A stretch of 64,000 nt of DNA from Colius striatus. Its lineage: Eukaryota > Chordata > Aves > Coliiformes > Coliidae. This document shows positions 1 through 49,060 of the stretch, in pieces. The stretch's first letter is position 1. Each line of letters begins with the position of its first letter. The stretch lies in assembly GCF_028858725.1 (NCBI RefSeq), contig NC_084771.1, positions 10,196,915 to 10,260,914 on the forward strand. The letters run 5' to 3'. The translations under genes and the position numbers were made by a program. The notes under the pieces were generated by a model. The model was not told the origin of the DNA. It did no database searches and saw only the letters and a program-made list of their open reading frames with translations.

Positions 1-4695
<4,695 letters not shown>

Positions 4696-13672: not shown

Positions 13673-13879
13673 TCATTCTGAAACCATGACTTGATGAATG
13701 TCACTGGGCTGTAATCCAGTTATTCCATGTGGTGGTGGGAACAGAGAACTAGATATTTCATTTGGACTGAGTGAGCCAGAGTCACTCTGAGCTGAGCCCC
13801 CACTGCCATCAAACTGAGATATTTTCTTCTTGATAATTTTTCTTTCTTTTGCTCGGCGATTCTGGAACCAGATTTTTAC
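13673..13879 (-). CDS. CDX4: CDX4 copy A, exon 3 (recognition helix and C-terminus)
   Basis: Starts in phase 0 after ACACTGCAG with [14 protein letters not shown], the DNA-recognition helix, and continues with [15 protein letters not shown], a Ser/Asp-rich stretch and [12 protein letters not shown]. The stop is TGA at 13675-13673. The sequence before the acceptor is poor in pyrimidines (about CATTTATAACACTGCAG), so this acceptor looks weak. The basic KKK stretch after the homeodomain is probably part of the nuclear localisation signal. Confidence 0.9.
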   Translation of the reverse strand, partial: VKIWFQNRRAKERKIIKKKISQFDGSGGSAQSDSGSLSPNEISSSLFPPPHGITGLQPSDIHQVMVSE

Positions 13880-16800
13880 CTGCAGTGTTATAAATGATAT
13901 CTGATTAATTCAAAGTAGTGGTCAACTTTTTACAGTAATAATAGCAACAAATATCTAGATATGTTAAAAACAACCCCTATAAAATATTCGCATAAACCCC
14001 AAACAAACAAGCAAAAACGCCAGAAACAAAGAAACCCCCCCCCCCAACCCCCCAGTGTTTTAGTTACTCTGTATACATTTTCTTCATTCTAATCAATAGA
14101 AAATTACTTTCTTCTGTTAGACCTAGTGGAAAGTGAGATTACTGTGTTATATTTAGGCACATAAGAATCAACTTTGACTCAGGGTCCATCTAATTTGTTA
14201 TCCAGACTGTCAGTGGCACGTGTCAGACTTTAGAAAGATTCCAATTGTGGAATAATTTTGAAGATATCTTGATCATCTGTCTTATAGGTTAATTCAGGCC
14301 CAAATAGTGAAGGTGGTTCTTCATTTATATTGTGGGTGATTTTTGTGTGTGCATATACTTTATATATTAAAAGTTTAGCATTTTTTTGTTACTGGAGTGT
14401 GTAGATGTGTACTTTACAGACACATATACAGTACATATGTACATGTGTATAAATTGATATATTAGCATTAATTAATGATGAGGAATTTCCCAGGCTAATT
14501 GTGCATATGTAAAGGCTCTTATCTGTTTGAAATCTACTTTTAGTTGAAGGATCTATATTTTCTTTCCATAGCTGAAAGTGTGAATGAGTAGAAAACATCA
14601 TTTATGTTTTCCTTACCATTAATTTTTTGCATTCTTACTTTAAAGTGTTTGTTGTATCCTTTAAGGATTCAGTGTGGTTCTGTGAATACAATGTGATATA
14701 GAACGTCATCCCATTGCTTTGTGTTAAAAATCTCATCATTATTCTCTAGTTATTTTGTCATTACCTTCCTGGGAATGACAGTAAAAAACATTTAGCTTTG
14801 TCACAAGTCCTGTAGAAATGCAGATAATATTGTCTACATTACACTTGAAGGAAACTTACCAGTAAAAATTTTGATGGCTTTAAGAGCCACAGTTATATAA
14901 AAGGAAACCACTGATTTTATGTGGTGTCACTGGTTACTCCAGGCATTTTGTTCTCCGTCACCCGACTTGCATAACATTAAGGTAGAGATTTTGAATCTTT
15001 CATAATTACAGTTCTCTGCAAGTTTTCCAATGCAGCTGTATCATACTGTATAACAAACTTTAGTCCATTAATTATAGACTTGTTTTTCATAGTTGCTTTC
15101 TGGGGCTGCTTACAGTCTGTGGAGTATAATCTGCGCACTGTTTAGAGCTGGGATTGAACACCATTGCACTACAATATGTTTATAAAGATCTAGCACTTGG
15201 TCCTAAAATACTGTTGTTTATCTATTCATCCTTACACTTCCAGCCTCAATTGGTCCCTCTCTATTCCGTGTTCTTGCACATACTGAATGCAGAAGCAGAG
15301 GAGGCCACTGAAAGAGGATATTTTAGATACAATATGTACATTCAGAAAGAACAAAAATGTGTAGAATTCTGTTGTTGTTTTTTTTTTTTTTTAAAGAGAT
15401 CTCGTGTTTAAATTTACCTGGGGGCAATAAATCTGGTTGCTAAGGTATCGCCAAATCCTCCCTTATCCTCCAACTGCAGCAGAACCATTGCAATTCTGTT
15501 GTATAAGGTGGGTTGGATTCAACAGTTACTGTTTTGCAAACTGCAGAGCTTTGCTTCAAAAGTATGCTCTCCAAACACAATGACTTTGGGAAATTCTTTA
15601 TCCTGAATTCCTCCAGTCCTTGTGTGAACACAGCTAATATCCCTGGGCCCCTGTTCAGAAGACTTTCTTCAGAACAGAGCTTAAATATTTACTTGATATG
15701 AATGAATGAATACAGAGCTGCTTTCCAAAGAAGCAATGGATCCCAATATGCACTTGAAAATTTCCTGAATGGATAGTCCTGGCTACATATATATATGCAT
15801 AACAGGCATAAAAATTCAGCACAAAATTTTATAGCCTGAGTTATATAGTATATAGTGGGTGTGAACTACTACTGTAGGTGAAGTACTTGTAAACAGTACC
15901 TGCAAAAAGAGATCCTGGCTTGAAAATCTAAAGTGAGTTTGTAAAAACTCATTAAAATGTGCTGAAATCTAACTGACTGAGGAAGAATGTGGCCTGTGAA
16001 ACAGTAGCAATAAATTTGTAACAACAATTATGTAAGTAGGTCATTTGATTGCTCTTTGAATATTGAGTTTTCATTTTTCCTGGCTTACAGCTGAAATATA
16101 CCAATGCTTTGGATTTTTTCTGACCACCATTTTCTGTGATTGTGTGAAGAAATAAAATGGTGAATGTCATAACTATTGAGAACAGAGTTTAAGATCATGT
16201 TAAACTGAACTGTTTAAATTGTAGCTGTCTAGCAAGCTGTTATGTGCATAAGAATACATACTTTTTCTGCTACAAATGAATTCCTACTGTTTGATTACCC
16301 ATAATTGGAGGTTTCTCTCAAATTATCCTATTTTTGAATTTGTATTTGCACAGTGTATTCTCTGTGTGTTATAAATTAGATCATGGTTGCCTTTGCACTG
16401 CTTTTGGATGCAGAATGCGAATGCTGCTCATGTTCCCTGATAGTAACAGTGTCTGATGAGTGGGTGCATACAAATGATGGAGAGCCTATGTACCTGTCTT
16501 TCAGATAGTCCCAGGTTTGCTGCAAGTTCTGACTTTCTCCTTATTGTAATGTATCTGTTGCAGTGAAATTCCTTCTCTAATTCTAGTCTCTGATGATCTG
16601 TGTAAACAACCCGGTACTTTTCTTTTGTTCTTGTTTTACCTGTTTAAGAAAGAAATATTATTAATATGTTGCATTTTATTTTTCTATAGCATCTTTATTT
16701 CAAACATCTCAAACATTTTACAGACATTAATTAAGCTGCAGAGTAGTTGTGTGGGATTGTTTCCTGTTACAGGGAAGGAATGTGAGATGCAGGGTGAGGG

Positions 16801-19800
16801 AGTGGGTATTGGTTATGATAACTGTCTATCCCTCTATCTGCCTTTCTCTGTAAACATACATTTAAATGTAACGCTCTTAAGTGAAAAACAGCCTGAAGCA
16901 TCTTAAATAATTCATAGCAGTGTATAATTGATGCTGGCTATATTTGATCTCAAAGGGGTTTAATTTCAGTGCTCATTGAAGTAACTTCCATGTATATGCA
17001 GGCAAAAATACCCAGGATTTCAAGAACGAAGTTCAGTCACAATTTGTTGAGTCATACTGTGTCCTAATTATTTGTTTGTGTTTTTAAAGTTCACCTCTGT
17101 AACACAAAGAAGTGTCCAACGGGAAAAGCTTTTGTTTCTTGTGTGGCCATAGGACATGCTTATAAGCTCATTAATATTTTGAAGTTATTTTTTCTAGAAG
17201 GTCCAGTCTTGCAAGATGCTGAGTGCCTGTAGAGGCGTTATTGGGGGCACTCTGTGTCCTCAGCTTCCCCTTTGAGTTGAAGGCACTTGGCAATTTGTAA
17301 GATGAGTCAATAAAATACTTGTAAAAGGATTTTAGAATCATCTTATCTCTAATATATAAAAGAAATGTTCTTAGATATAGTAGATAAATACTATTAAGAG
17401 AAGCATTACTTGATGTTTAGAAGACATCTCTCATTTCATAGACTTCTTTAAACAATTCTTCGCGTAATAATAATACAGAGAGATTGCTTTTCAACTTATT
17501 TGTTCTCCTTTGCACTTTCAACAGCCAGCTAGATAGTTTTCTTTTTTCTTCAGATCTTCCCAGGTTTTTTTTGGGTTTTTTTGATGTGAGCTTTCTGGGA
17601 CAAACTGTAGGACAAAGACCCCTTTAAAGTGGTTCCCTAAAATCCATTGAGGTGTTAAGATGAAGCACACGACACACAAAGGAGCGACAAGGAGATCTTA
17701 TCAAGAACCCCTTTCACATTCAGAAACACAAACCAATTGGTTTGGAATTTACAAGCCCTAAACAAATGTCAGACTCTTTCATCTTAGGAGAGGGAAAAAA
17801 AAAGGACAGAAATAGATGAAGGACTATTTTTTTCCTCAATTATCTTTAATTTTGGACCAACACTGAGGATAGACTGCAATATTTTTAACTAAAGGCTGAA
17901 GGTAGACATAGCTTAAGCCATTTGGAAAGATGCATGATTAAGGATGTTTTCTCAAATCCTATGCCATTTTTACTTTTAGTGTATAAGGTTTTCCTGCTTA
18001 GATTTGCAGGACTAAATCATCAAACTAAGTTTACTTTTTTTCAAGGTACAAATTCTTGGCTTTGAAATATTTGCTGTGATAGATATAATGTTAACAATAG
18101 TATAGATATTCAGGTTCCTTGTAAACTGAAGGCTTAGGAGGTAATCTTTGAAAAAAAGTTAAAATTCAACAGGGTTATTCTGGCTTCACTATAATCAGCA
18201 AATATAGCCATGATTTAAGGGGGTGGAGTAAAGGAGTAGTTTTCTCCATTCCCCTTGGTCATAAAATTCACAGAGCATTTCTTCTGAAGACAATAAAGCT
18301 AGGAGAAGGCCTCTTTATTTGCTGTGAAAATCATCACCCTTTCCGGCAATATAACTCCTGAAGAAAAGAAGGAGAAGGAAGAGACAAGACTGCATATCAA
18401 AGCAAAGTAAAGTGTTGAAAGGGTCTGTTGCCTCAATATGACAGATATGCCTCAAAACCTCAGACAATGTAGCCCAGTGGAAAATAGATGTCACAACTAG
18501 TTTACAAAGCAAAATAAATTAGCGTTAGAGCAGAGGCCTGGCCTTTTTCCTGCTTTTGTATTTTGCTTTCGGTCTGTGTTTCTGCTGTGATGTAATCTGT
18601 ATTCCTTGTCCACCACTGCATGCTTAAACAAGAACATAAAATGTGTTGACTAGAGTTTAAAAACCAAAAAACCCTGTGATTGATCTTTAAAAATAGAAAA
18701 ATAATGTCCTTTTTGTTTTGTCCCCTTAAAGGCTTTCTTAGAAAGGTCACTCCCAGATGAAAGTGGATATCAAGTTTTAAAAGATATAAAATCTGTTTTC
18801 TAGGCCCTTGTTCAGATATATTCCTTGCAGGAAGATTCATGCTTTAAAGGCTCACTCACTCTCATCAAATACACATTTTACACTATTGATTACACAGCTT
18901 TTAGAAATGAATTGGTCTGAAGTTCTACTTTTACGTAACTCAAGTTGAATGGACATTTTGTCATTGTTTTTTACTCAACACGAGATCAGACTGTGAGGAA
19001 TTCTGCATATATTCTTTTCCTCATTTTGACAGCCTGTCTGGGAAGATACTTTCACCAAGGCCACTTTAGATGTTTGTTAAAATTTCTTATCACCTCTTAT
19101 GTGTGCAATATCTGTGTATTAAAATTAAAACCGTTTTGGTTCTGAGTACAAAGTTATGGCCTTTTAGTAAGAGGATATATCATTTCAAATCAAGTTGCAT
19201 CTGTTGAAAGGAGATAGTACTTCTGTCTTTGTCATGTTATTTCACCCTGAGAATTGACTTGGGTAGGTTCTCATTTCACTTTTCCTGCAATTTAATTTCT
19301 TTTGTGTGAAATGCTAAATGCAAATATTGAACCAGAATGTAGTAGACTTAATAGAGTCTAAATAGAGAAGAAAAATTCCTATTAAAATCTCCTCCACACA
19401 AATAATTTCCATTCTCTTTAGGACAATATTTCAGCAGGCTCCCTCATTTTGTTAAATGTGATTTCTGTTATTCTCTGCTATTCATGTACATCAATGTGAG
19501 TACAAGCCACTACTGCAGTTAAGGCCATACACCTATTTACATGCAGAAATAGAACTGTAGAATTTAAGGCTGCAATTCTGACATTTTAGAGCAATGAACT
19601 GTATTAAACAGCAATAATATTGAAGGGCAGAGGCAATGGCTGCTTTGATAGCATAAGTAATATTCTGGCAATAAGGGAAAACAGAGAGCAAGTCGGGTTC
19701 AGAGAGCAGTTATAATAGTATCAAGCACATTTTTAATGCTATCTTCTAGAGAAAGCATTGATGAGTTAATATGAAGCTGTTACACACATGATTTTAGCCT

Positions 19801-22075
19801 TGCTATTCTTTGTTTGAATTCCCTTTCATTCTTCACAACTTTTTGTGTTGGCACTAAAATTTTCTCTTTTATGGTTAACATTTTTTTAAACAAGCACCAA
19901 TGAAAAGTTAAATCTATTTGGTACTTTTCTCACTTGACAAAATACCACATTGATGCCTTACTGTCCAAACCCCTTTTTTTGAAGCTGGGTTGGTGTCTTG
20001 AATCCAATTCTTCGAAGTCCTGAGCTGTTTTTAACACTTCAAAGGACTGGGCTCCAGGAATGTGTAGCCTCAGGACCTTATCTATTGACAGACCCTGTTT
20101 CACCTGTGCAGAATCCATGAAGTATTTCATGTATATAAATTCCATGTAAGTGCTTTTGAGACTAGAGATTAATTTAAGCACATAACTGCTTTTCCTGGAT
20201 GACATATATGTTTTATGAAGTTGAGCAAGCGTGTGAGAAACAGTGTCTTCCATGTCTGTACAATAAGGGTAAAACTAAGATTTATATTGCTAAGTCCATG
20301 CTTTAAGAAAGCTAACATGTTTCCAGTTCAGCAACAACATGACAGAGACAGGATTGCCTCATTGACATTCAGTAGTGTCAATTGAATTTGGTCTAGACTC
20401 AAGTCTTACATCACTTCTACACCTGGAAATCTCCAATGATGTTAATGAAGTTACTGCTGATTTATGTGAGTATACGTAAGGGGGAAAACAGACAATAAAT
20501 CTAATTGGCTCTGAAGACCTTTGTAGAGGCTCCCAGTGAAAGGTTGGCATTGCGATATCCTAATGTTCAGTAGGCATTGTATATTTAGTAACAGTGGAAA
20601 AAAATGTGTCTGCTTTATAACTAAGAAACAATTACCTGACTAATTTTTCTCTTGAGTAATAACCATTCCAAGGAGGATTTGTCTCAAGCAGCAGTGGTGA
20701 TTTTCTGTGTCTTGTAAAGTTGCTCTAATTGTAATTGCTCTTCTTTAGAGCATTTTCTTTGATGCTCTCTAACACAGACTTACTACTTTTAACCTTAACA
20801 ATAGCATTAGCAAACCTTGCTACACCCAATTTACACCTTGGGAATATACATTCAAAGGATCATCTGACATGCAGCTTGTGACAAAAACAGGCACATCAAC
20901 GAGTGACACTTGCAAGAAAGTGATTTTTTTTTTTTAAATTGTGTCATTGTGACAAGATGCAAAATTCTGGTACAGGAGAAAAATATGTTAAAGCAATTTG
21001 AAACTGAATGAAAAGGAAGCTTGAGTGATGAGATATGTGCTCTGCGAACAAAATAGTCTATGTGGATCATTTGAGTCAGATTACTTCTCTCAGAATATTT
21101 CTTCTCACCTAATAAATCTATGTATAAAAATAAAGGACAAAGGAACAACAGCAGAAAATGGCATAATCACTAGAATTGGAGCAGGGCACATAATTTTCTT
21201 TGAAAGCATTGAAAAGCTTTAAAAACATCAACCTATTTTATATTGCTGATTACCTTGCGGCACAAAATATTTGTGTAGTTTCTTGGCATACAACAGTTAA
21301 GTGTTGCTGCATTCATTGTTCCATAACATTCTCAAGGATAGCATGTTTTACATCCAAAATGCTTTGCAGAGTGTTACAGCAATAATTCCTGGGCCTGAGT
21401 GAGATGTAGACATATCTAACCACAACAGCCATTCCACTGTAGTAACCATAGAAAGCCACTGGCAAAGCCTTTATGACAAAAGTGAAACTAGTGCAAATTT
21501 AGTTAAAACTGCATTAAACAGCAGTAGGTTAAATAAATGTCATAAATGACCCACCAACCTATGTGCTTCAAGTAAAGTTAATTATTTATAAGCTCAGTGA
21601 TAGCAGAAGATGCTTTCTCAGGTAGAAAGTTGAACAGACACTTACCGGTGGTGTTAACTTGCACTGTTTTCCTCATCCATTCATAAGAGCTGTGCCTTTG
21701 GCTGTTGGGAGAGATTTGCTGTGCATTAATTGTATCTACAGGAGGCAACCCCCCAGTACCAGCAGGATGGAGGGAGCTGTAATCAGCAGAACTGTAGGAG
21801 ACCTGTCCAGGAGACGAGCCATTGATCTGTGCAGCAGCAACCGTGCTGGATGGTCCTGGGCCGTAAGCGTTCCAGTCCTCCCTCTGTGGGCCATAGTGAG
21901 ATCCCCAGGCTCCCGCAGGCTGTCCGTGGGTATCCAGACTTGGCACATGATGATATCCCATGTAATCTGAATAGGGTGGAGTAGACACAAAATTCTGCAC
22001 TGGCAGGTTGTTATTAGCCCTTGCAGATCCTGGATACATGCTGCTCTCTTTCTCCAAGAGAGAGCTCACATACAT
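13673..22075 (-). CDS. CDX4: CDX4-type caudal homeobox transcription factor, copy A (whole gene, 3 exons)
   Basis: Exons 22075-21646, 16639-16494 and 13879-13673 join in frame (430+146+207 nt) to a 260-residue protein. CDX proteins are nuclear ParaHox factors that bind TTTATG/A-type sites and set posterior axis and Hox expression downstream of Wnt, FGF and retinoic acid signals. Visible features in order: the caudal activation N-terminus ([10 protein letters not shown], then [15 protein letters not shown]), the PBX-type motif [10 protein letters not shown] (residues 130-139), the homeodomain at about 149-208 with Trp196, Gln198, Asn199 and Arg201, and a C-terminus ending HQVMVSE. An ATG ten codons upstream is in frame, but the family starts at MYVS, so 22075 is chosen. 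Homeodomain position 22 is Cys (FHCNRY), and the [12 protein letters not shown] tail looks like mammalian CDX4 as I remember it. It lies in tandem with copy B upstream and CHIC1 downstream, all on the minus strand. The reading frame is intact throughout. Confidence 0.9.
16494..16639 (-). CDS. CDX4: CDX4 copy A, exon 2 (most of the homeodomain)
   Basis: A 146-nt exon, entered after TTCTTAAACAG and left at CAG|GTACAT. It completes Gly144 and encodes residues 145-192, starting [20 protein letters not shown] and ending LSERQ. The donor lacks G at +5 and looks weak. It differs from the copy B exon at 16 bases; three of these change the amino acid (Lys/Arg, Cys/Tyr, Gly/Arg). Confidence 0.92.
17590..17735 (-). 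promoter_or_regulatory. Diverged intron 1 element shared with copy B
   Basis: Aligns moderately with 38070-38190 in intron 1 of copy B. Shared pieces on the plus strand are TTAAGATG-AG-ACAC, GATCTTATC and CATTCAGAA in the same order. It lies between exon 2 and the 18255 element in both genes, so it marks the colinear paralogous intron. Whether it has a regulatory role is unknown. Confidence 0.45.
18255..18545 (-). promoter_or_regulatory. Conserved intron 1 element, copy A (candidate enhancer)
   Basis: Positions 18255-18477 align without gaps to 39438-39660 in intron 1 of copy B with five differences in 223 bp, and similarity resumes to 18545 after a length change. The surrounding intron does not align. 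Motifs seen on the plus strand: CATAAA at 18260-18265 (reverse of the CDX site TTTATG), TTTATT at 18314-18319, and ATCAAAG at 18396-18402 (reverse of the TCF/LEF site CTTTGAT). This fits Wnt-driven, CDX-autoregulated expression but is inference. A single-copy regulatory element is more likely than a mobile element because it occupies the same intron, order and orientation in both genes. Confidence 0.65.
21646..22075 (-). CDS. CDX4: CDX4 copy A, exon 1 (activation domain and YEWM motif)
   Basis: Encodes residues 1-143 and the first base of Gly144. The donor is strong (G|GTAAGTG at 21645). Positions 21661-22012 match exon 1 of copy B with only three differences, all synonymous; codons 1-19 and the last five codons are clearly more divergent. 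The plus strand also has a 103-codon open frame here, which is an antisense shadow. Confidence 0.9.
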
Positions 22076-22221
22076 GACTGTCACAGGCTGCAAATATGTT
22101 GTCACAACATCTTGTTCTTCCGTATTTTCTTTTGCTGCTTAAAAACAATTGGTTTTGGTTTTCTCTTATAATGCCACTCTGCTTGGAATCTTCTACTTCA
22201 TCCTCTTTTATTATCAAGTGT

Positions 22222-22372
22222 GTTACCAGGTCCTGGTGGTAATGGTTTACCAAGATCTTGTCTGACGTCAGTCTAACTGCCTGCCTCATAATTACATTTA
22301 CATTCAAATGAAGGGCTGACCAACCCCACCTTTCTGCTGGCTCTGGTGCTTTCTCTTTTAGAGAACTTTATC
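22222..22372 (-). promoter_or_regulatory. Promoter-proximal block of CDX4 copy A
   Basis: About 150-300 bp upstream of the copy A ATG, this block aligns well with 44876-45039 upstream of copy B, including ACTGCCTGCC, ATTACATTT-CATTCAAATG and AAGGGCTGACC. A full CRE palindrome TGACGTCA sits at 22263-22270; copy B has only TGATGTCA. A TATA-like ATTATAAGAG (minus strand, near 22172-22163) lies between this block and the ATG. The transcription start is not determined. Confidence 0.55.
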
Positions 22373-25300
22373 TATTCTATTACCCTTCCCTGATATTCAG
22401 CAGCAACTCCAGTACTGGAAGGTGATGCAACAATTGCTTGTATTTGTAGCTTGGTAAATATACCTTTTTTAAAAAAGAAAAGACAGTGGTAACTACAATA
22501 GCAATGTTTGGTGTTCAAATGGTTGTTGCCTGAAACATTTATTTTCTGATGTGTTATCAATCAAGTAGTAAATCTGTTACTCAGCTTCTCAGATACTCAA
22601 AATAAAAAGATCTAATTTTTGATTCCTAAATGAAGAGCTGCAGTCAATTTGAATAATTCTAAGTTACTGTAAATAACTTGAGAATACAGAGCACCTTGTA
22701 AACAACATGTCTTGAATATAACTCTCAAAAGTTTTCCCCTAATTATTGATGTTTGTAAGTGGTTTTTTAGTGTGGGAAAAATTAAGGCTCAAACTGTAAA
22801 TGCACATGTTGACACTATACCCATACAGAGTGATTTAAAGAGATCCCTTCATCTCATGGCCATAGCAAACTGATAAATTTTTAAAAGCAGACAATCTTCT
22901 TACCAAAGGTGATGCCAGAAGAACAAAGAAAATTACTGTAAAAAGTAGTCAAAAAAGTCTTAGATTTAGCCCAGTACTACTGTTGGCTTCTGTTTCAAAC
23001 TGAAGTCCACCTTTCTCTGCCGGAAAGGCTGGGCACCTTCCCTTGAAACCTCTGTGTAGTCGTCTGTTTGCAGTGGTGGCAGCTTAGGTAAGTGAAATCA
23101 GCAGGGAGAAAACATCAGGGTTATCCAGTTAGTGGATCAGAACTGCCTTGATGTGTTTCTGTGAAGTGCCTGACGTGTGGATACTCTATGTGTCAATGTG
23201 AGGGTTCCAACTAAGAAAAAATATTTGGGAGGTGGTTTTATATGTTGAGCTTGATATTGAACTAAACCATACTTTGTCTTGAGAATTGCTTCTGTATGGT
23301 TATCTAGGTATAATTTGTAGGGTGAATTTAATATATTTTTACCTTGGATAGATTTCTTTGCAGTGAGCTATTTGTCAAGGGGTATGCTTGCAAAAGAGCT
23401 GCAAATTACAGCAGGTTGTTTCCCTTTACAAAGGTGTGGTTTTTCATTCAGTATGATTTGTATTTTGACACTACTTGTATTCACACATCCCTTCTAATTC
23501 CAGCACTAAAGGATTCTAAGTATGTACTTAAAGACAGTGAAGATATTCCTCTTCTGATTTGGTTCTTGTTTTGTTTTTGTTTTAAGAAATAATTTTTACT
23601 AAGGAGTGTAGTAAAATCTTTATAGTTCATTTTGCTATATTTCCAGATTTCTTTAGTAAACTTTGAGATTCTGAGAATGTTGAGGATGGGATGTGTGAAT
23701 CATGGGACAAGACATGGAGAAAGTAAGGCCTTCTGTAATTGTTGTACCCTTATAGAAACAGAGGTTAAAATTACAACCAAAAATAGGGAAACAACTCTTG
23801 TTTTCTTCACCTTGAAAGAAAAGGAATTACAGTTTTTGAGAGCTCATGCAGTTTTTAGCACTGATTCATGTTAAAATAATCCAAATTATATAAGAGATGT
23901 TTCCTCTCCTGCAGGTATCCTTGTAATCTTTGGCCTATTTGTGAGTCTTATGCCAGCAGTTGAATTCAGATGGATTGCTAAATGTTCTGCAGAGCTGCCA
24001 GTCACTGGCAGATCCATAGTAAGGGCAAGTTTTGTCTCCGTTGGCTGTATCTAAAATCCATTGGCATAGGACAACTGAACATTGGTTGCTCATAGATCTC
24101 AGATGAGAGGCATTAACTCCTAAGCATACGATTTTTACATTTCAGTGGATGACATTTAATTTCATAGAATGCATTAGATGATGCATTTTTAAGCCTTGGT
24201 CTTCTTTTTTTTCTGGGATGCCTCTGCACATACCCCCCACAATTTCAGTGTCACCTAATCCTATTTTTTGTATCTCAGAGCTTTATCCTTTATTCTCTGT
24301 TTTTCTTTTATCTTTTGTTTATACTCCTCCTTTCCCTTTTTTGTTCTGCCTGTTCCATTATCTGAATTTTCTTTAGATCTATTTCGATTCTTTCCAGAAC
24401 ATAATTAGATCAAGATATGCCAATGGCGAATTGCTACACAGATTTGATATCAGCTAACAATAGTAAGCTTTGAATAAGGCATTTTGTTTAAAAAAAAATT
24501 TACATAGCAGGATAAGATTGCTGGGTAGGACAGCAGATTTTTAACACCAAAGTGAGAATAAGATAACTAAAATGACAACTTTCAGACAGTCTTCTGCATC
24601 CTGACTCACATACCTCCTGTCTTGTGTACCAGAACCATGTGGATGTATTAAAAAAAGTATGAGGTCTTTTCATGTAGTCCAGTAGTTTGAGGCTACCAAA
24701 ATTTGGGGTTGATGATTTTTGAGACATAAATGACTATTATCTGAGCCCTCCTTCCCAGACACATTTCTTGGCCACGCACGTGCCCTTCCTGCTCAGATCC
24801 AACATGTCAGTAACTTCAGAGCCACTGAACTGCTGCATCTTCAGTGTGTGGCTGTAACTTACACTGTAGTTCCAGGAACAATTTTAGTGTGTATTGCTGT
24901 CGAGGAGGAAAAAAGTGAACTGCCCTTGCCTTGTCTGCATTTGCCCAGTGAGAAGATGGCAATGAGTTGCTGGTGGTAGAGGAAGGAGCAATGTGCCTGT
25001 TTAAAGTGCTTGTGAAAATATCACGTTGCCATAGGCCCTCTCCTGGCTTTCTGGAGTGATGAGAAAGTGAAAGCAGTTCTGAGGTAGTGGCTTAAACAAC
25101 CAGAAGTCTCATCCATAGAGTGGTTTGTATTTATATCCTTTTCTGCAGTGGATGATAAAGAATAGGAAAGATCTGTGTTCTATTGGCAACAAGAGTGCTC
25201 TGCTCTTTGGCATACTTCAGAGAGATGAATGGCCAGAATAACTGAACTCAGGTTGCAGTTTTCTGGGTTTTTTTCTCTACCTGTAATAATGTTGTGTTAA

Positions 25301-31113: not shown

Positions 31114-31368
31114 TTACTGAGAGGCCACTACCTGCTGCAGGTTCCCATTGTGCTGCAAACCATTCATGGGAAGTGGAGGTGGAGGAGGTGGGGGTGGAAA
31201 TAAAGAACTGGGCATCTCTGAATGAGTCTGTTGGTCAGGAACTGGCATTGGGCTCACTGAGCCAGAGTCACTCTGCATAGAGCCAAGATTGCTGCCGTCA
31301 AAATGAGTCATTTTCTTCTTCATTAATTTTCTTTCTTTGGCTCTGCGATTCTGGAACCAGATTTTCAC
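31114..31368 (-). CDS. CDX4: CDX4 copy B, exon 3 (recognition helix and proline-rich C-terminus)
   Basis: Begins GTG AAA ATC TGG in phase 0 after a strong acceptor (TCCTCTGCTCCTCTGCAG). Encodes [19 protein letters not shown], then a Ser/Asp stretch, SPMPVPDQQ, eight prolines and [17 protein letters not shown], with stop TAA at 31116-31114. The first codon is the splice-continued Val, not a start. Confidence 0.92.
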   Translation of the reverse strand: MKIWFQNRRAKERKLMKKKMTHFDGSNLGSMQSDSGSVSPMPVPDQQTHSEMPSSLFPPPPPPPPLPMNGLQHNGNLQQVVASQ

Positions 31369-34300
31369 CTGCAGAGGAGCAGAGGAAATGGTGTTTTTCA
31401 GTTGCTAGTAGAATAAACGTGGTCCTTTTGTGTATACAGTCAGGGGTCATAGATAAAATCAATTGTGTGAGGACCAGTGAGAAAAGGCAGTGACAAACAG
31501 ACAGCAGAGCTGTTTGCTTGGTTTTCATACATGTAGTCTTTCCTATCTGCTTATTAAAAAGGGGGTTTTGGGGTTAGTTTTGTTTTTAGGAAGGAAAATA
31601 TGAGCAGTGATGTAGTAGCTCAGTGCCTTTTATCTTGTATGTAGATGGAGCCAGACTCTGCTTCTGGTTCCTGTGCAGTCCACTGCTTTACACCAGTCAC
31701 TGCTCTATCACAATAATAGAGTCATCTTTGGGAAGAAATGAAGAATCTGCTGAAACGTATGTGGTTTTGATTAGGGCAGAACAAGAGGACATGAGATGAA
31801 GCTGATAAGTAATGGCTGATTCAAAATACAGCAGAACTTAGTCCAGTGCAAAAGGGTGAATGTTCTATGGCAACTAAAATGTTGTTGGATGTGAATCTCC
31901 CATGCTGGATTTAAAGCAGTGTATGCCAGGGATTTAGTCTAGAAAATTACTCTCCCTTATGTCTAGTGAGGGCATTGAGTAAAGCTACCTCATTCAGATA
32001 GGTGGTGTTTTTTTGTTAGTGTTCAGATGGCAAAGGAAACACTTTTGGTGCTATAACCCAAAGAAAAATCAATGGCTTGCTGAGAAATAATGATTTTTTA
32101 GTTATCCTTCACTAGAAACTAGAAAATGGGAAAGAATGATGATCAGAAAGGAGGTGAAACAGTAAGAGGTGATAACATCTGTTAAAATGCAAGATAGATT
32201 GTATTTTAAAAGAAAACCTAGTGGTGAAGTCCCACAAAGCATCTTAAGGAGTCTCTATGATGATTTCGGTGTACTCCTTGGGGTGTTTTTATTTCCATTT
32301 TAGAACTGAAGAATTAAGATACACACAAAGCTTGTTGAAATTTGAACTCAGTCTCTTAAGGCCCAGGCTAGTGTCTGAGACATTTGGCAGTTCATTTCAT
32401 TGTCTTAGTTTCTGAATATAATTTCAATACTGAATAGTGTGCCATTAAACCAGTCTCAGATAACACCCAGATCTCTCTTGCATTCTGATCCTGCTGAGGT
32501 AATCTAGTTTCACTCGTGTTTGACAACAAGCATGAAAAGGTGAAACAGTTTAAAAAACAAACACCTCTCTGGCTTCAGTGTTCTTACCTGCCTTTAAATT
32601 TAGACTTCTGTTCTGGTTTCTTATTAAAGTAGGAATGCAGATTTGCAGCAGTGATCCAAGAAGCATTTTAATAGGTGCTTCATGGTTGGATCTCAGTTAT
32701 CAAATAACTACAAGTAAATGCAGGTCTGTGATGTCAGACTAAAAGCTGACATGGTCAGCTGCATCTATTTGACTTGTTCTTCACCTGTTGCCCTCTTTCC
32801 TGTACTTTTTTCTATTGTAACACTTCCCCTGAAGTCTGATTTTTTCTCTTCTTTCTTCTCATCTCCTTTATTTATGTATCCTTCCTATATTAGCAATGCT
32901 TCATTTTGCCTTTTTTTTTTCTTAGTTATTACATCTTTCCTTGTTTAAACAATTGTTCTTTATTCTTTTGTCTTGATATGTTCTTCGCAGTGTTCTGGGT
33001 GGGATTTTGGCATAGCCAGGAAAAATGATTTTCCAGAAAATCTTTTCAGTTTTTAGGCTGAGTACTATGGAACTTGAGATAGAACAGCGTGTGTTCACAG
33101 TCATACTCATAATATGGGGTTAATTTGTATGAAAGGGTAGCAGTGTATAAAAATTGTGTATTTGTTTCTTAAATTTTCAAAAGTGAGTTCAGAGGTACAG
33201 GCTTTATGCACTGGAATGAATTTTGTATGTGACACATATTGATGACCCTAGTAAGGCCACATCTGGAGTACTATGTCCAGTTTTGGGCTCCCCAGCTCAA
33301 AAATGAGAGAGAACTTCTGAAGAGAGCCCAATGCAGTACTACCAAGGTCATCAGGAGACTGGAACATCTTTCTTATGAGGAAAGACTGCAGGAACTGGGG
33401 CTATTTAGTCTGGAGAAGAGAAGGCTGAGAGGGGACTGTATTAACACTTGTAAGTACCTAAAGGGTGGGGGTGGAGAGGATGGGACAAGTCTTTTTTCTG
33501 TAGTGCCCAGTATCAGGACAAAGAGTAACAAACACAACTGGAACACAGAAAGTTCCACTTGAACACGAGGAAAAAGTTTACTGTGAGGGTGATGGAGCCC
33601 TGGCTCAGGCTGCCCAGGGAGGTTGTGGAGGCTCCTTCTCAGGAGGTTTCCAAACCTGCACGTTCCTGTGCTCCCTGATCAAAGGGAGCCTGGTTTAGCA
33701 GGGGCTTGGGCTGGGGAGCTCTGGAGGTCCCTTCCAACCCCCACCATTCTGAGATTCTGTGATGAAGAAAAGCATATGTTTTGATAACTGCTGCCATGTT
33801 TCCCAAATATGCATTAAAAAAATATATCACATCTTTTTTGTATCACCACTTCAAATATACTAACAAAAAGTTTTAACAGGAATTATCACTGAACTAAGAA
33901 TTTTCAAGTAAATATTGTCAGTCATTTACAGAATCAGCATAATGAAATCAAGTTATTAAGGTTTTAACAGCCAGCAAAAACCCGCAGTGTGTATCTTTTA
34001 TACCCAGCATAAATAATTTTCCTTTTCAGTAATTAAATACTCTCATTCTGCAGCAGATTAAGGAATATTTGCAAAATGAGTATTTTGCTTCTCCATTTGT
34101 GTAAACTCTTCCAGTGTGTGCTGTTGTGAGACAAGTTGAAGTTGGATGAGCAGTGCTACAACTAGACAGATTTTGGACTGTCCTTGCTCAGGAGAGCCCA
34201 AAAACGAATGGTGAATCAGGCATAATCTTCAGTCAGTGCTACTGAATAATAATGGACCAAGGAAACAGTGCTGTGATGGCCTGCAAATAGAAGAGGCAGC

Positions 34301-37300
34301 AAATGCATATATTGTGTCCTGAAATCTGTTCTGGGAGATCCTTCAGTAATTTTCATGTTTCACTGCATACTTTAGTGTCTCACATCAAGAAACTCCCAAG
34401 TAAAATGAGACTGAGCACATGCATAGACATTGTGAGTGTCTTTGTGGGAGATCTAGCATGGCATCTTATCTGCCTTGTTTGTGTGAGCCACAGATGAGGC
34501 TGTGTATCTGCTTTGCTTTGGTAGGGGGTGGCACAGACCTTGCAATTGCATGACTGAAGAATGGCACAGAGTGAGTGGTTCCAGAGCAAATTGTGTATAG
34601 CTTTTGACCAGAAAGGATTACGTTTTGGCTCAAGTTGTGGGAATAGAAGTGGAAATTGGTGGGAGTGGAAGGAAATAGGGACAGGAAAATGGTGCAGAAA
34701 GTATGCAGAAAATCTTTAAGAAAAGGTAAAAGGTAGACAAAGAAACAAACATCTTCAAGGGTCCTCAACGTACTTGAGCTCATCACTTCCATCCTCTGCT
34801 GCAACTGACCTTGTTGAAATTGGTTATAGAATTCCCATTGCCCTCAGCAGAACCAGGACTTCCACTTTAGAAATTTCAGCAAAAATTTCTCCCTGCTACT
34901 GCTACCCCAGGAAAACAGAGAAATCTGGGCACAATTTTGTTGATGTTTTTAAACTCCTTGTTTCTCAGAACGGGACTCTATGTAAGCCTGGTATTAGCTC
35001 CCCAATAAGAGCTGAAGTAGTGCTGGTGGGATGTTCAGAAAGAGTGCAAACAGGGCTGTGGAGCCATACAGCTGTATAGTTTGAGTTCCTACACCACAAA
35101 AGGGACCCATTGTTTGGTTATTTGAGGCGTTAGCATTTTTGTGTTCATAGTCAGTACTGTTATCTCCTCATCAGAATAATAAATTCAAAGCAATCCTGAA
35201 TGGGTGATCCATACTCTACCTGTCTCTCGGAAAGTCTTAGGTTTGCAGCAAGTTCAGACTTCCTCCTGATTGTAATGTATCTGTTGTAATGAAATTCCTT
35301 CTCTAATTCTAATCTCTGATGATCTGTGTAAACCACTCGGTACTTCTCTCTTGTTCTTGTTTTACCTGTTTTGAAAAAAGAACACATTGCTTCAAGCTAG
35401 AATTTTTTCACTTCAGTAACACAAAATATCTGACTTTACATTTGAAAATACACTTGTGGGTATTTTAGGCCTGATGCTCTATGCACTTACCCAGAGTAAC
35501 TCCCTTGACTGCAGAGCGCTTGGTCTTGATTTACCATACAAGAGGTTTATACCATCAGATTTTGGATTTGCTCCTTAGTGAATGGATGATAAACTGGTAC
35601 TCATGTTCTCGTGTTATCATTTGGGAAAGGGAAGCAAGGAGCCAGGAAACCCGGATTCGGTTCCCAGCTCTGCTGCCAGCTTCCTGCCTACTGTTGGATT
35701 GCTCAGTTTTTCTGTCCCTAAAGCTGCTGCACTGCTACCTGTTTCATAGGGAAGTTGTGATGGATATTTTACTGTGTAGAAAATATCGAGAGCTTCTGAA
35801 GTTCCTCCTTATTGTTACTAGAAAAATGAATGCAATACTGTTATTGTTGCTGCAACTTGGAGGTTGTGTTTTTCTTTCAAGTCAGGCATAGTCTATCCGT
35901 GACTTGATAATAGCACAGGGAATAGTAACAGATTTTCAGATGACAGTTAATAAAAAAGAGAAAAAGAGAGCAATAATCCTTAACAAAGGACATTGAACAA
36001 TGATAGAACTGCAGCATCTGTTCTTTTGCGAGCAGCAGTGCTACATCCTTTCAGCTGTGGGCACAGCTGACTGAGGCAGGCATGGCTCAGCAGTATCCCA
36101 GTCATTAAAAGATAATGGCAAATGAAGAGAGCTAGTGAACACAGATGCAAGGAGCTGAGATTTTATGGATTCCATACAGGATGATTTCTGAGGACAGAAG
36201 ATACTGACGGTAGCAAAAGAGAATGGAGAATGGAAAAGGCTAATGATGCTTCCTCTATCACCTACTTTTCCCCTGTTGTTAATGTTCATATTAGGCAATC
36301 GATATATTAGAGATTCACTTGCTTGAAACCATGGCCCCTGAGAAGATTGGTTCCTTGTTATATTAAGACCGGTGTTGCCATGTTCAATAACCACACTCTT
36401 GCCATTTGTTTTTTATGCTTCCTTTTCTTTTTATATAATTCTGTGGACATTTCTTCAGATGTACATATTTAGACAGCAAGAAAATGCAAAGTAAACCATT
36501 TACAGAGTGCTCACTGTTGGTTGTGAATCTTTGTGTCCTTAGTGATCACTACTGTAGAACAGCCTCCTTAGATTCAGGTTCTCTCAGATGATGCACAAAA
36601 CCCAAGCCATATTGTGGCCTGTTGCCCGTAACAGTGCTAGTGCTGCAGATGTGGCTTAGCTTCATACAACAGCTCAGGTTTGCTTACAGAACTTTTCCTG
36701 AATAGATTGTGTGAGTGCCTAACTCTTCAAACTCATAATAATCACACTCTGAATAAGAGCAGTTAATTTTGAATGGAGAGGGCTGAAATAGACTTTCAGG
36801 CATTGAGTTGGTAAAATGTTAGTCTCTGAGGAGATCACTGTGGCACTCCACCCCATAGCAACCCTCTTCCTCCTTGCAGGAGAGAATAGTGAGAGGTTTC
36901 ATGTATCAGTGATGCCAAAGCCCTGATTTCTTCCCAGCCCCTCCTTCCAACTCCCCTTGCTTTTGAAGTTTAAATAGCATCCAAAGATCAGAATTCAGGA
37001 TACAGAACTATAACAGAATCTTGAAGTACATTAACCTGTGAAACTAAATAATGAATTAAGGGATAATGTTGGTTTTTTTTTTTCCCCAGCTATGGAGGGA
37101 GACATGATATCTCTTTATTTTAATAGCTGAACATATTTATAGAAGTTAAAGTTACCTCCACTTGCTGTATACACTGTATGGTAATAACTTGAGAGCCATA
37201 ACACTTTTTTCTCCTTCAGCATTTGACATTCAGTACTTTGGTGAGCCAAAAATTCCTTTAAGTAGCAAAATATTGTTTGCATTAAAAGGTTCTTTGGGCT

Positions 37301-40300
37301 TTGGTCCTTCTTGTACTGTTTGTATAGATCCTAGATACAGAGTTGTTTGGGGCTGGAAGTCCTGGTCAGTGTAATACTGTAAACAAATACCATAACACCG
37401 CAGTATGGGGATAATAGCTGGTTCACCACACGACTGGGTTTCTCTGGGACTCTTCCATCAGCTTCCATGCTCCATGGTGTTCAACCCTGGGAAAGCACTA
37501 GGAATTGATAGGGAGTTTACAATGCTGTGGGCATTTTTCAGCTGCCTTAAGGCCATCAGCCTGTTTTATTTGCAGTATTTCAAGGAGGAAAATAGATACA
37601 TGCATGTTTGTGTTAGTTCCTTAGGCTGGGGTTTCTGCTCAGTGCATGCAGCCAAAACCACTTTATCTCAAATCTGTTAACTTCCCTATGCAGGTTCTGC
37701 TCCACCGTGCTTGGTTGGGGTAGATACGTAGGACATTCTCATTTCAATAGCATTTCTATCATTGTGAAACTGTAGGGAAAGCAGAATTAAGCCAATGCTG
37801 TTTACACTGATAATCAAGTGAAAAGTGCTGTTAACTTTACAACATTATGGTAAGAATTTTAGAGTCTCTAAAGAACAGCAGTTACTCAGTTCAGTCCACA
37901 TAAATACTAGGACATTTGTTTTCATTCATTCCAAGTGTAAATTGTTTGTTTAACATATGGTCACCTGGGGTGCTTTAATGCTTCCCTTGATATTTTTAAA
38001 CTTTTGATCTCTCTAGCTGGTGGTTTGGTTAGGATTTTTTTCCTCTTTAAATGAGAATTTGGGGTCATTCTGTGGGACAAAATGTTTAAAATGTTGCCTT
38101 AGTCTCCTTTGTGTTGTTAAGATGGAGTACACAAATGAGCAACAGGGTGATCTTATCTTGAACTCTATTCTCATTCAGAAGCCATAGACAAATATCGAAT
38201 GTTCTTCTGTTGCCAAAACAAGGTGGTAAACTTCAAGAGAAACCTTCCTGTTTCTGGTCTTAAGTACTTAAACCCTTATTGCTGGAGTAGGAGAGGGTTG
38301 GGCTTTTTACTTTTTAAACTGAGGAAATTAAATGGTGTGGAAACCAGAACTTTCTCCCATAAGCAGAAAAAGGAAAGACCATTTCCTTCCCAAAAGTCAA
38401 CAATACTCTGAGAAAAATTCTCTGATTTGCCATAGAAATTTGTCTTTAATAGTAATTTTTTGTGTGTGTGTAGAGTAAAACCCTCTGTGAGAGACAGCAG
38501 AAATTGGGAGCTGAGATCTGCCAGAGTCTTCGGCAAGGTTATTTGTATTTCCAGCAGAGTCATGTTTTAGTCTATTAGGCCTTCACCCAGAGTCTCATTG
38601 ATGTCAGTGAGAATCTTCCTAATGCCTTTGTTGGATGCTGGGTTGGAATTAGTCTGCATATGGCATTTCCTTTCAAAGGCAAAGTACACTTTTATTTGCC
38701 AAAGTTAACAAACAGCAGTAACAAAACCTATTGCTAAATTCCATCCATTAGAATAGATCCCCTCTTCTGCATTCTGAGCCAAACTGCTCCTGGTTGTACT
38801 TATAATAATGTGTTTTATTTGAAGGAGAAGTATTACCTGAGTAAAATTTGAAGTAAGACACTCCAGAGACAGCAGAGTGATGTTCTTCACTTCTCAGACT
38901 TCATTTAGTCATGCAATCATAAAAATTATATTTTAATCTAATTCTTTAGTCAAATCCTGCATATTTTACTCAGGTGAATGAAACTACCAACATTTAACTT
39001 TCTGCAATTTTAATTATCTTTTGTTAGTGATAAATTATAACTTTAATCAGTAATATTGTGTTAGTTTTATTGGAAACATGTTCCATCATGGACAGTTATA
39101 CTATGGAATTGCAAGTGGCTGGGGAGGTTGTTAGTAGTTGAGTGGAATGAAAATTAAACAAAAGAGCTTTGAAACTACTACCTTTGCAGTGTGACTGCCT
39201 GTGTGTGTGTGGAGTGCATTTCCTGGTTTAAATGAGCTATTTAAGAACAAAGAGTTCTATCAAAAACCTATTTTGCCAATAGTGACTGTTGAACAGTGCC
39301 TTTGGAGTGACAAGAAATAAGACATTTCAGAAAGCTCTTCATGAGACGCGGATTAACAATCCTGTTCTATCACATCCACTCTGGCAATTTTTGAGACTGG
39401 CCAACTTTTGAGTTGGGGGAAGGGAACAGCTTTCCCATTGGTCATAAAATTCACAGAGCATTTCTTCTGAAGACAATAAAGCTAGGAGAAGGCCTCTTTA
39501 TTTGCTGTGAAAATTATCACCCTTTCCGGCAATATAACTCCTGAAGAAAAGAGGGAGAAGGAAGAGACAAGACTGCATATCAAAGCAAAGTGAAGTGTTA
39601 AAAGGGTCTGTTGCCTCAATATGACAGATAGGCCTCAAAACCTCAGACAATGTAGCCCAGGAAAGGAAAGGAAAAAAAAAATCACCATTGGACCTCACAA
39701 CTAGTTTACAAAGCAAAATAAATTAGCATTAGAACTAGCCCTGGCCCCTTCTCCAGTGCCTCTTCTCTTAACTTTTCAGGAGTGTTCTTCATCTACTAAA
39801 ACTGCATCATTCATAAAATCGAGAAGCTCCGTATAGAACAGTGTTGGATTGCTTACAAAGCACTGTAATCTGAATTACAGAGTTTAACATTATTTCAGAA
39901 GCAGTTAATGTCTGTACTTGATGCTGGGATGTTAGTTTAAGTCAGCTCAAAATGTGAGACAGGTTTCTGGCCTGAAGATTTGCTCAGTTCAAATCTACAT
40001 CTTTATGTTAGTTTAGTATTAAGAGAGATTAGTGTTACTGATCTTATAAAGATATGAACTGTCAGACATCACACCCAAGAATTTTGGTTTGAGACTATCT
40101 ATATAAATATTTATGCACTTTCAATGTGTGGGAAAAGAAAGGGGCAAATTCTCTCTAGTGTAATTTCACCAACTTAATTGAAGTGGTGAATCATAGAGTG
40201 GTAAGAGTTGGAAGGGATCTCAAGAGATCATCTAGTCCAACTCCCTTGCTAAAGCAAGTTCAAAACTAGTTTTGAGTAAGTGTTGAAAGTGGACATTGTG

Positions 40301-43300: not shown

Positions 43301-44707
43301 TTTCTACTGATTTTAGTGCATGCCAAAGCTGTTCAGCACCCCAGAGGATCAGATACTTTTATATAGTGAATTGTGCCTGTGTTCTTTTCAGGCACTTTTC
43401 CTTCTTTCTTTTCGTTCTTTTTTGTCTCATACAAGGCACAGAATTTTTTCATTTAGGGATGCTCAATATTTATACTTTTTTTGTTTTTCCAATCAAACAG
43501 AACTTTTTCCTCATGCTTCATGACTTTTTTTTTTACTGGTTAAATATGATTGAAGAATTGTTTTGTACTCCTCAACTACTATATGTCGGAGACTGATCTG
43601 TCACTGTATTAACTGATTGTGTTACCTTGGATCTTTGTATTCCTGCATATTCTGGGAGCTACAACTACAAAGTGAAGCAAGTCCTTCCTTATCATTCCTG
43701 TTTTTAAAGCATGGACTCATTGTTTGATCTTGCAGATCTCACTGCATTTCAGTGTTCTGAGGTTTAGAGAGGTGCTTTCTAATGCAAAGCCTTATTCCCA
43801 ACCCCCCTACTGTATTTATTTTACTTGAACTTTTCTTACATCCTCTAGAAATTGAGGAAAATAAACCAAGTGCAGGTGGGAGTGAAATACAACACTTTGA
43901 TCATGATTTCTTTCTGCACACGTGCTGCTTCATCCAATCTATAGGACTCCTATTAAAAGCAATTATTTGATATTACAATTTTTTAAACATCTCTGAAGTG
44001 AAACTACTTCACTGCAGAAGGACATTACTTTCCATTTCCCTCAGAATGAAATGTCAAGAAAGAAATATAAGAAATAGGTAATTAAAACCAACATCCAATA
44101 ATTGAACCAATATATAACTACTAGCAAGAAAATCCTTCAGAGCAACTAGGGTTGTTGTTTGTTCTAATGTACCCTTCCCTCTAAACATGGAACTTGGCAA
44201 AAAAAAAACCAAAAACCCAACAATGTCAGAAAAGTAAACTCTCTTCTCAGCATCAAACCTCAGTGCTCTCATACCTGTTGAAGTGGATTGCACCGTTTTC
44301 CTCATCCATTCGTAAGAGCTGTGCCTTTGGCTGTTGGGAGAGATTTGCTGTGCATTAATTGTATCTACAGGAGGCAACCCCCCAGTACCAGCAGGATGGA
44401 GGGAGCTGTAATCAGCAGAACTGTAGGAGACCTGTCCAGGAGACGAGCCATTGATCTGTGCAGCAGCAACCGTGCTGGATGGTCCTGGGCCGTAAGCGTT
44501 CCAGTCCTCCCTCTGTGGGCCATAGTGAGATCCCCAGGCTCCCGCAGGCTGTCCGTGGGTATCCAGACTTGGCACATGATGATATCCCATGTAATCTGAA
44601 TAGGGTGGAGTAGATACAAAATTCTGCACTGGCAGGTTGTTGCTGCTGCACCTTGCAGATCCTGGATACATGCTGGTTTCTTTATCCAAAAGATAACTCA
44701 CATACAT
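31114..44707 (-). CDS. CDX4: CDX4-type caudal homeobox transcription factor, copy B (whole gene, 3 exons)
   Basis: Exons 44707-44275, 35365-35220 and 31368-31114 join in frame (433+146+255 nt) to a 277-residue protein. The layout is that of a CDX factor: N-terminus [10 protein letters not shown] closer to the usual caudal start than copy [26 protein letters not shown] (131-140), homeodomain at about 150-209 with Trp197 and Asn200 intact, then a Ser-rich tail with eight consecutive prolines (251-258) ending QQVVASQ. Residues 23-140 are identical to copy A 22-139, while the C-terminus is largely different and longer. Homeodomain position 39 is Arg (ANLRLSERQ) where CDX proteins, including copy A, have Gly. 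Position 22 is Tyr. Introns are larger than in copy A (8.9 and 3.9 kb against 5.0 and 2.6 kb) and hold CR1 and MIR-like insertions. All splice sites and the frame are intact, so it should be functional. Which copy is the true one-to-one CDX4 orthologue cannot be settled here. Confidence 0.9.
33235..33765 (+). mobile_element. CR1 LINE, 3' fragment (intron 2 of CDX4 copy B)
   Basis: The plus strand encodes the last part of the CR1 reverse-transcriptase ORF ([13 protein letters not shown], then [20 protein letters not shown]) followed by the characteristic 3' UTR: a segment like CAGGCTGCCCAGGGAGGTTG, then GGTCCCTTCCAACCC and the terminal ATTCTGAGATTCTGTGA repeat. It is 5'-truncated, as most CR1 copies are, and has lost continuous coding. 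It is antisense to the host gene and absent from the equivalent intron of copy A. Confidence 0.9.
35220..35365 (-). CDS. CDX4: CDX4 copy B, exon 2 (most of the homeodomain)
   Basis: A 146-nt exon entered after a good acceptor (TTCTTTTTTCAAAACAG) and left at CAG|GTAGAG. Encodes residues 146-193, from [20 protein letters not shown] to NLRLSERQ. The Gly-to-Arg change in the turn before the recognition helix is the one unusual homeodomain residue. If translation read past the donor it would continue VEYGSPIQD, which is intron sequence. Confidence 0.92.
35630..35790 (+). mobile_element. Probable MIR-type SINE remnant (intron 1 of copy B)
   Basis: Shows the order of MIR core features: GAGCCAGGAAACCCGGATTC, TTCCCAGCTCTGCTGCCA, then a stretch resembling CTCAGTTTCTCCATCTGTAAAAT, then ACCTGTTTCATAGGGAAGTTG and GTGATGGAT. 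Heavily decayed, consistent with a pre-avian insertion. A 136-codon open frame over it has no protein similarity that I recognise. Confidence 0.6.
38070..38190 (-). promoter_or_regulatory. Diverged intron 1 element shared with copy A
   Basis: Counterpart of 17590-17735. The shared blocks GTTAAGATGGAG-ACACA, GATCTTATC and CATTCAGAA occur in the same order, with small gaps. It shows that intron 1 of both genes derives from one ancestral intron. Confidence 0.45.
39438..39746 (-). promoter_or_regulatory. Conserved intron 1 element, copy B (candidate enhancer)
   Basis: Counterpart of 18255-18545. The first 223 bp match copy A at 218 positions; then copy B has an extra purine-rich stretch (about 39661-39682) before similarity resumes with CACAACTAGTTTACAAAGC. 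It keeps the CATAAA, TTTATT and ATCAAAG (39579-39585) motifs. It lies 4.1 kb upstream of exon 2, against 1.6 kb in copy A. Confidence 0.65.
40190..40262 (-). mobile_element. CR1 LINE 3'-end fragment
   Basis: AATCATAGAGTGGTAAGAG, GTTGGAAGGGATCTCAAGAG and ATCATCTAGTCCAACTCC are the reverse complement of the CR1 3' terminus, so the element points leftwards. Only about 70 bp remains. It sits in intron 1 of copy B. Confidence 0.85.
44275..44707 (-). CDS. CDX4: CDX4 copy B, exon 1
   Basis: Encodes residues 1-144 and the first base of Gly145, ending before donor GTATGAG (44274). An ATG three codons upstream (44716) is in frame, but the family start MYVS at 44707 is preferred. One codon longer than exon 1 of copy A because of CSSNN in place of ANNN near residue 20. 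Positions 44290-44641 are nearly identical to copy A. Confidence 0.9.
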
Positions 44708-44805: not shown

Positions 44806-44875
44806 GCCCTGACTGGCTCTATAAATGACTCATGCTAGCCCTGATGTCCCTTTACTACACATGATTAACAATGGT

Positions 44876-45039
44876 TTTACCAGGTGCTGGTGGTAACAGT
44901 TTACTAAGGTCCTGCCTGATGTCACAGATAACTGCCTGCCCCAAAATTACATTTGCATTCAAATGAAGGGCTGACCATGCAGGCAACCCCACCTTGCTGC
45001 TAGTTCTAGTGCTTCCTTTCTCACAGACCCTTTATCTGT
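44876..45039 (-). promoter_or_regulatory. Promoter-proximal block of CDX4 copy B
   Basis: Aligns with 22222-22372 upstream of copy A at a distance of about 170 bp from the ATG. On the plus strand it contains ATTTGCAT (octamer type; ATTTACAT in copy A), CATTCAAATGAAGGGCTGAC and, near its right end, CTTTATCTG. Between the block and the gene are an AP-1-like TGACTCA (44825-44831) and a TATA-like element. The function is inferred from conservation and position. Confidence 0.55.
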
Positions 45040-48879: not shown

Positions 48880-49060
48880 GTGAGGGAGCAGTGGCACAGG
48901 CTGCCCAGAGGGGTTGTGGAGGCTCCTTCCTTGGAGGTCTTCAAGACCCACCTGGACATGTTCCTATGCGACCTGATCTAGGTGACCCTGCTGCTGCAGG
49001 GGGGTTGGACTAGATGATCTCTAAAGGTCCCTTCCAACCCCCACCATTCTATGATTCTAA
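48880..49060 (+). mobile_element. CR1 LINE 3' fragment
   Basis: Reads GGCACAGGCTGCCCAGAGGG, then CTTCAAGACCCACCTGGACA, GGTTGGACTAGATGATCTCT, GGTCCCTTCCAACCCCCACC and ATTCTATGATTCT, the standard CR1 3' UTR and terminal repeat in forward orientation. 5'-truncated and non-coding. Confidence 0.92.

Follow-up and report, generated by a model that had tools for sequence, protein, structure and literature searches.

Probable gene conversion within exon 1 of two tandem CDX4-like genes in Colius striatus

Background

How do two neighboring homeobox genes come to share 302 identical bases within a single exon, when the rest of that exon differs between them at synonymous and nonsynonymous sites alike? 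The question is raised by a 64,000-nucleotide stretch of the Colius striatus genome (the window), which carries two genes of the caudal (Cdx) type. Cdx genes set the posterior pattern of the body. Three of them are typically present in a vertebrate (PMC4522105, PMC2701559, available text), and the human, mouse, chicken, and frog sets, each with one Cdx4, follow this rule in the excerpted text of PMC4522105. In contrast to the single Cdx4 of those four species, positions 13673-44707 of the window contain two intact, tandem CDX4-like genes. In zebrafish, a Cdx4-Chic1-Lnx block is placed at two sites on chromosome 14, as an inverted duplication, in the available part of PMC2430539, and one Cdx4 locus is counted in that of PMC2543028. 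Among the literature matches listed, which mostly fall outside the subscription journals, no tandem or converted CDX4 pair is reported for a bird or reptile.

Two tandem caudal-type genes

The window contains two intact, three-exon caudal-type homeobox genes, copies A and B, which lie on the minus strand and have GT-AG splice sites. The genes are arranged in tandem, in the same orientation, and their first exons are 22.6 kb apart. The coding parts of the exons are:

13673-13879, minus strand: copy A exon 3, end of the homeodomain and a C-terminus ending VMVSE (from reading and codon alignment)
16494-16639, minus strand: copy A exon 2, first part of the homeodomain (Homeodomain, PF00046)
21646-22075, minus strand: copy A exon 1, coding part, with ATG at 22075 and donor GGTAAG (Caudal_act, PF04731, residues 13-143, 187 bits)
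31114-31368, minus strand: copy B exon 3, end of the homeodomain and a longer, proline-rich C-terminus ending VVASQ (from reading and codon alignment)
35220-35365, minus strand: copy B exon 2, first part of the homeodomain (Homeodomain, PF00046)
44275-44707, minus strand: copy B exon 1, coding part, with ATG at 44707 and donor GGTATG (Caudal_act, PF04731, residues 13-145, 194.2 bits)

The encoded proteins are 260 (copy A) and 277 (copy B) amino acids long. In both, Pfam finds Caudal_act, at the scores given above, followed by the homeodomain (78.6 bits in copy A and 73.2 bits in copy B). When copy B, the sole copy queried, was compared with the PDB, the homeodomains of CDX-1 and CDX-2 were the top matches. 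Given these Pfam and PDB matches, both genes are of the caudal type. We call them CDX4-like, a provisional name; the C-terminus looks CDX4-like to us. Presumably, the ends of copy A resemble mammalian CDX4, and those of copy B resemble fish and frog Cdx4.

A minus-strand open reading frame (ORF) inside 4150-4695 reads, as far as we can judge, like the N-terminus or first exon of CHIC1. It matches no Pfam family, and four CHIC1 probes give no further match in the window, of which only 4.1 kb is left on that side. Linkage of Cdx4 and Chic1 is known in fish, frog, and chicken (PMC2430539, available part).

Two other histories of the pair were rejected. Pseudogene decay of one copy has left no sign: neither frame is interrupted, both copies keep their splice sites, and dN in exon 2 is 0.028 against a dS of 0.537. 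Recent duplication of the whole gene is ruled out because exons 2 and 3 are highly diverged (dS 0.54 and 1.11, respectively) and most of the intron sequence cannot be aligned.

The surroundings of the genes add little. There are 42 stop-to-stop ORFs of at least 100 amino acids in the window, and ten of these, lying elsewhere than in the genes, have no Pfam match above the cut-off (two gave weak matches below it, with an E value of 0.065 each). The window has no Rfam match at gathering scores and no tRNA gene. Repeats common to 33233-33758, 40188-40262, and 48878-49058 are present near a reverse-transcriptase-like ORF (33233-33562), which we take to be a CR1-like reverse transcriptase and which matches nothing in Pfam; an element of this kind would point to a sauropsid. 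The copy A protein, as a single query for close relatives among viral contigs, returned four pattern-matching stretches and no confirmed relative; the copy B protein, searched likewise for close relatives among prokaryote genome contigs, returned 23 stretches and no confirmed relative, neither collection being meant for vertebrates.

An identical tract in exon 1

The original prediction was that 21661-22012 in copy A had been homogenized with its counterpart in copy B. In the codon alignment this block indeed differs at only 3 of 352 bases (21665, 21683, and 21986), all of them third-position, synonymous changes, and it contains an exact run of 302 bases. The block had been described as 118 codons; 117 whole codons were counted, and the near absence of synonymous change holds. 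Seven exact direct repeats emerge from a search for 28-mers with exactly two occurrences in the window, and the 302-base run is the longest of them. The tract and its extent are:

21684-21985, minus strand: tract core of copy A, all 302 bases matching 44313-44614
44313-44614, minus strand: core of the tract in copy B, 302 bases identical to 21684-21985
21666-22012, minus strand: best extent of the copy A tract by maximum likelihood, with 2 differences over 347 bases (two-rate breakpoint scan)

Two rates of difference describe exon 1 far better than one (lnL -58.68 vs -86.93, a gain of 28 log units), and extents of 21684-22012 and 21684-21985 fit nearly as well as the best one. A run of this length is not reproduced by chance. 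When the 780 aligned coding bases, with their 92 differences, were permuted, none of 100,000 permutations reached a run of at least 302 (the largest was 124), and permuting the 260 aligned codons gave no run of at least 100 in 200,000 trials (the largest was 51). Shuffling only the 218 degenerate codons that encode the same amino acid in both copies never matched the observed run of 97 (0/200,000; the largest was 68). Such codons are identical at 97 of 97 positions in the tract, as against 85 of 121 elsewhere.

Within the 302 bases (100 codons), none of 76 synonymous and none of 224 nonsynonymous sites differ, and 55 fourfold sites and 6 CpGs are all unchanged. The other 160 aligned codons have a dS of 0.742 and a dN of 0.122. 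The original argument that purifying selection on the protein is insufficient to account for the tract is therefore borne out: such selection is ruled out because the synonymous sites are also unchanged, and the rest of exon 1 differs at sites of both kinds.

On both sides of the tract, divergence is high. As had been noted, codons 1-19 differ at six bases and are followed by a one-codon indel near codon 20, and the last codons of exon 1 differ between the copies. Upstream (5') of the 352-bp block, 11 of 63 bases differ, corresponding to 5 of 13.7 synonymous and 6 of 49.3 nonsynonymous sites; 3' of the block 8 of 15 bases differ, and 3' of the 302-bp core the exon differs at 6 of 9.3 synonymous and 4 of 32.7 nonsynonymous sites. 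Both edges lie inside exon 1 and inside Caudal_act (residues 13-143), and neither coincides with a domain or exon border. In exon 2, 16 of the 144 bases that align are different (11%), and its 48 codons contain 13 synonymous changes, figures that agree with those first given. Exon 3, besides its high dS, has a dN of 0.21 and several indels. The longest exact runs shared by the copies in exons 2 and 3 are 22 bp and 21 bp.

When the window is compared with itself, exon 1 is the longest homology that survives between the copies (435 bp at 95.6%). Ranked next by score are a block in intron 1, exon 2, and a block upstream of the genes, after which come a portion of exon 3 and a weakly similar patch of intron. 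The upstream block, which is probably promoter-proximal, is located as follows:

22210-22376, minus strand: upstream block of copy A, 78% identical to 44864-45040
44864-45040, minus strand: upstream block of copy B, 78% identical to 22210-22376

An octamer-like ATGCAAAT in this block is intact in copy B and has a one-base difference between the copies.

The explanation that best fits the tract, and that we regard as probable, is a recent non-allelic (interlocus) gene conversion of the core of exon 1 between two old, tandem CDX4-like genes. Three other explanations have to be weighed against it.

Alternative explanations

One alternative is purifying selection at the DNA level, whereby an overlapping function (an exonic enhancer, an RNA element, or a second reading frame) would freeze the core of exon 1 in both copies. 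We consider this unlikely. It is a real rival nevertheless, because exon 1 is not the only near-identical sequence in this gene pair. A block that falls in the first intron of either gene model is also highly similar:

18255-18477, minus strand: copy A intron-1 element, differing from copy B by 5 substitutions over 223 bases
39438-39660, minus strand: intron-1 element of copy B, counterpart of 18255-18477

This intron-1 element is 97.8% identical between the copies, and its flanks barely align. Matches to consensus sequences for TCF/LEF, ETS, SOX, and Cdx-like factors, scored without a chance control, are present in it in both copies. It may be a Cdx4 enhancer conserved within the intron; the pair of blocks probably represents a shared enhancer, or else a second converted patch. 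We presume a link to a known FGF-response element of frog Cdx4. In the literature examined, including the available text of PMC10586617 and PMC2701559, no FGF-response element matching the intron-1 element is described.

The presence of such an element, bearing motifs and embedded in an intron most of which cannot be aligned, argues for constraint at the DNA level, and the rates agree: the 352-bp block and the element do not differ significantly (3/352 vs 5/223, Fisher p=0.27). The 302-bp core does differ from the element (0/302 vs 5/223, p=0.013), although the core was picked post hoc for its identity. The five changes in the element leave exact runs of at most 77 bp, as opposed to 302 in the exon, where constraint would have to freeze every base, including the 55 fourfold sites and 6 CpGs. 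Constraint that fixes every third base over 100 whole codons would be most unusual. Synonymous constraint elements are plentiful in Hox genes, and two of them lie in HOXA2, outside the homeobox (PMC4014394, available text). However, those two overlap residues 35-38 and 261-313, and each covers fewer than 100 codons (PMC4014394, same text). Constraint also fits poorly with the way in which divergence resumes at once at the edges of the tract, both of which lie inside Caudal_act. An antisense ORF (21626-21970, plus strand) and an ORF in an alternative frame (21736-22065, minus strand) overlap the region; they were given no weight. We also count against constraint that the activation domain of mammalian CDX4 is, as we take it, substantially unlike this one.

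The original claim that conversion is the simplest reading is accordingly kept for a tract of about 300-350 bp, with dS and dN of zero in its 302-bp core and with sharp edges. It had passed over constraint on the DNA, a possibility to which the 5 changes in 223 bases of the intron-1 element draw attention.

It is rather improbable that the tract is an artefact of assembly, in which the sequence of one copy was used to fill exon 1 of the other, or the two were collapsed. The identical run stops exactly at single-base differences, as a filled gap might. However, the 64 kb contain no N, and both flanks, together with the three nearest synonymous differences, are specific to each copy.

Conversion from RNA, in which a reverse transcript (cDNA) of the other gene, and not its DNA, would have been the template for the core of exon 1, is in keeping with a tract that lies wholly within one exon, but it is hardly credible, as no exons are joined, neither edge falls at a splice site, and repair from DNA gives the same outcome in fewer steps.

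Mechanism and age of the conversion

We infer both the mechanism of the conversion and its recency. A break in one exon 1 would have been repaired with about 300-350 bp copied from its counterpart, which lies 22.6 kb away and has the same orientation. The copied stretch would probably have ended where homology ends, with the indel near codon 20 as one limit and, as the other, the diverged end of the exon and the unalignable intron. Most estimates of conversion tract length are 50 to several hundred bp (PMC3924818, available text), with which a tract of 300-350 bp agrees.

The original prediction described the tract as confined to the activation domain. The identity does fall there, but functional targeting is improbable, and the restriction probably has no functional cause, since exon 1 is the longest block that can still be aligned and the tract ends inside Caudal_act on both sides.

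Conversion has probably recurred, with the effect that exon 1 has remained a good substrate and the short, isolated exons 2 and 3 have escaped. This view is based on the exact runs of at most 22 bp shared by exons 2 and 3, since exon 1, had it not been converted earlier, would probably have been a poor substrate. The minimal efficient segment is about 200 bp in yeast (PMC3924818, excerpt). If near-identity over such a length is required, one recent conversion between exons that had diverged as far as exons 2 and 3 would be difficult to start. The same source does not rule out conversion between paralogs with shorter identity, which counts against recurrence.

For dating, we assumed between 1.2 and 2.5 substitutions per site per billion years. 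With these rates and assuming neutrality, the absence of change at 76 synonymous sites gives a rough 95% upper age of about 8-16 My for the tract, and a dS of 0.74 gives, equally roughly, about 150-310 My for the gene pair. The GC content at third positions (GC3) is 0.45 in the tract, 0.50 and 0.44 in the rest of exon 1, and 0.32-0.44 in exons 2 and 3. Thus, the tract resembles the rest of exon 1 and does not clearly exceed exons 2 and 3, a pattern that provides no clear sign of GC-biased conversion.

Consequences for the proteins and significance

The two products had been described as sharing an activation domain and differing in their DNA-binding and C-terminal parts. The C-terminal parts are different, as the dN and indels of exon 3 indicate. 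A difference in the DNA-binding parts was overstated, because the homeodomains differ at three residues only, all encoded by exon 2 (K/R, C/Y, and G/R). When these are polarized by the CDX-1 and CDX-2 sequences of the PDB, copy B is derived at two and copy A at one, which is uninformative about the donor of the tract. At 35237, exon 2 of copy B has Arg just before LSERQ; copy A and the aligned CDX-1 and CDX-2 homeodomains of the PDB have Gly. The predicted outcome is a pair of factors that would share one activation domain, have a nearly identical homeodomain, and differ in their C-termini.

A broader history can be offered tentatively. The pair may go back to a tandem duplication of CDX4 in the distant past, one that perhaps predates birds or was even present in the amniote ancestor and whose second copy is absent from the three-Cdx account; repeated conversion would have kept the activation domain in common while the C-termini diverged, a case of modular evolution. 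If the reading is correct, an extra axial-patterning gene may have escaped notice in this lineage, and exon 1 would be a misleading basis for trees or orthology calls. The pair would also be a clean case of a developmental regulator in which one protein module is kept in concert and another diverges.

Comparison with known systems

The literature text searched does not mention the YEWMRK peptide in any of three forms. Several known systems resemble the pair in part. In Hox synonymous constraint elements, too, coding sequence outside the homeobox changes little at synonymous sites, but these elements are ascribed to overlapping function and were found across species, not between paralogs (available text of PMC4014394). 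Mouse Rhox2, Rhox3, and Rhox4 are tandem homeobox genes in which conversion is one possible cause of low synonymous divergence; there, however, whole 40-kb units are young and about 95% alike, whereas the pair described here is old and has one homogenized patch (PMC1562416, in part).

The avian Trojan family consists of linked bird paralogs, in which partial conversion was detected by GENECONV on silent sites, with converted fragments as short as about 300 bp and as long as almost 350 amino acids. Its members are leukocyte surface proteins, unlike the developmental transcription factors considered here (PMC4372362, excerpted text).

The nearest precedent is provided by TLR1 and TLR6, and region-limited conversion between tandem paralogs is thus already known. 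In these mammalian tandem paralogs, conversion keeps one functional region alike and the others diverge. In the available text of PMC2077338, the proportion of conserved residues that have identical codons is compared as well, a comparison like that of the degenerate same-residue codons made here for the tract and the remaining sequence. In the TLR genes, independent conversions took place in nine species and involve about 300 amino acids (PMC2077338, in part); here, a stretch of about 300 bp is involved, in a homeobox gene and in one genome.
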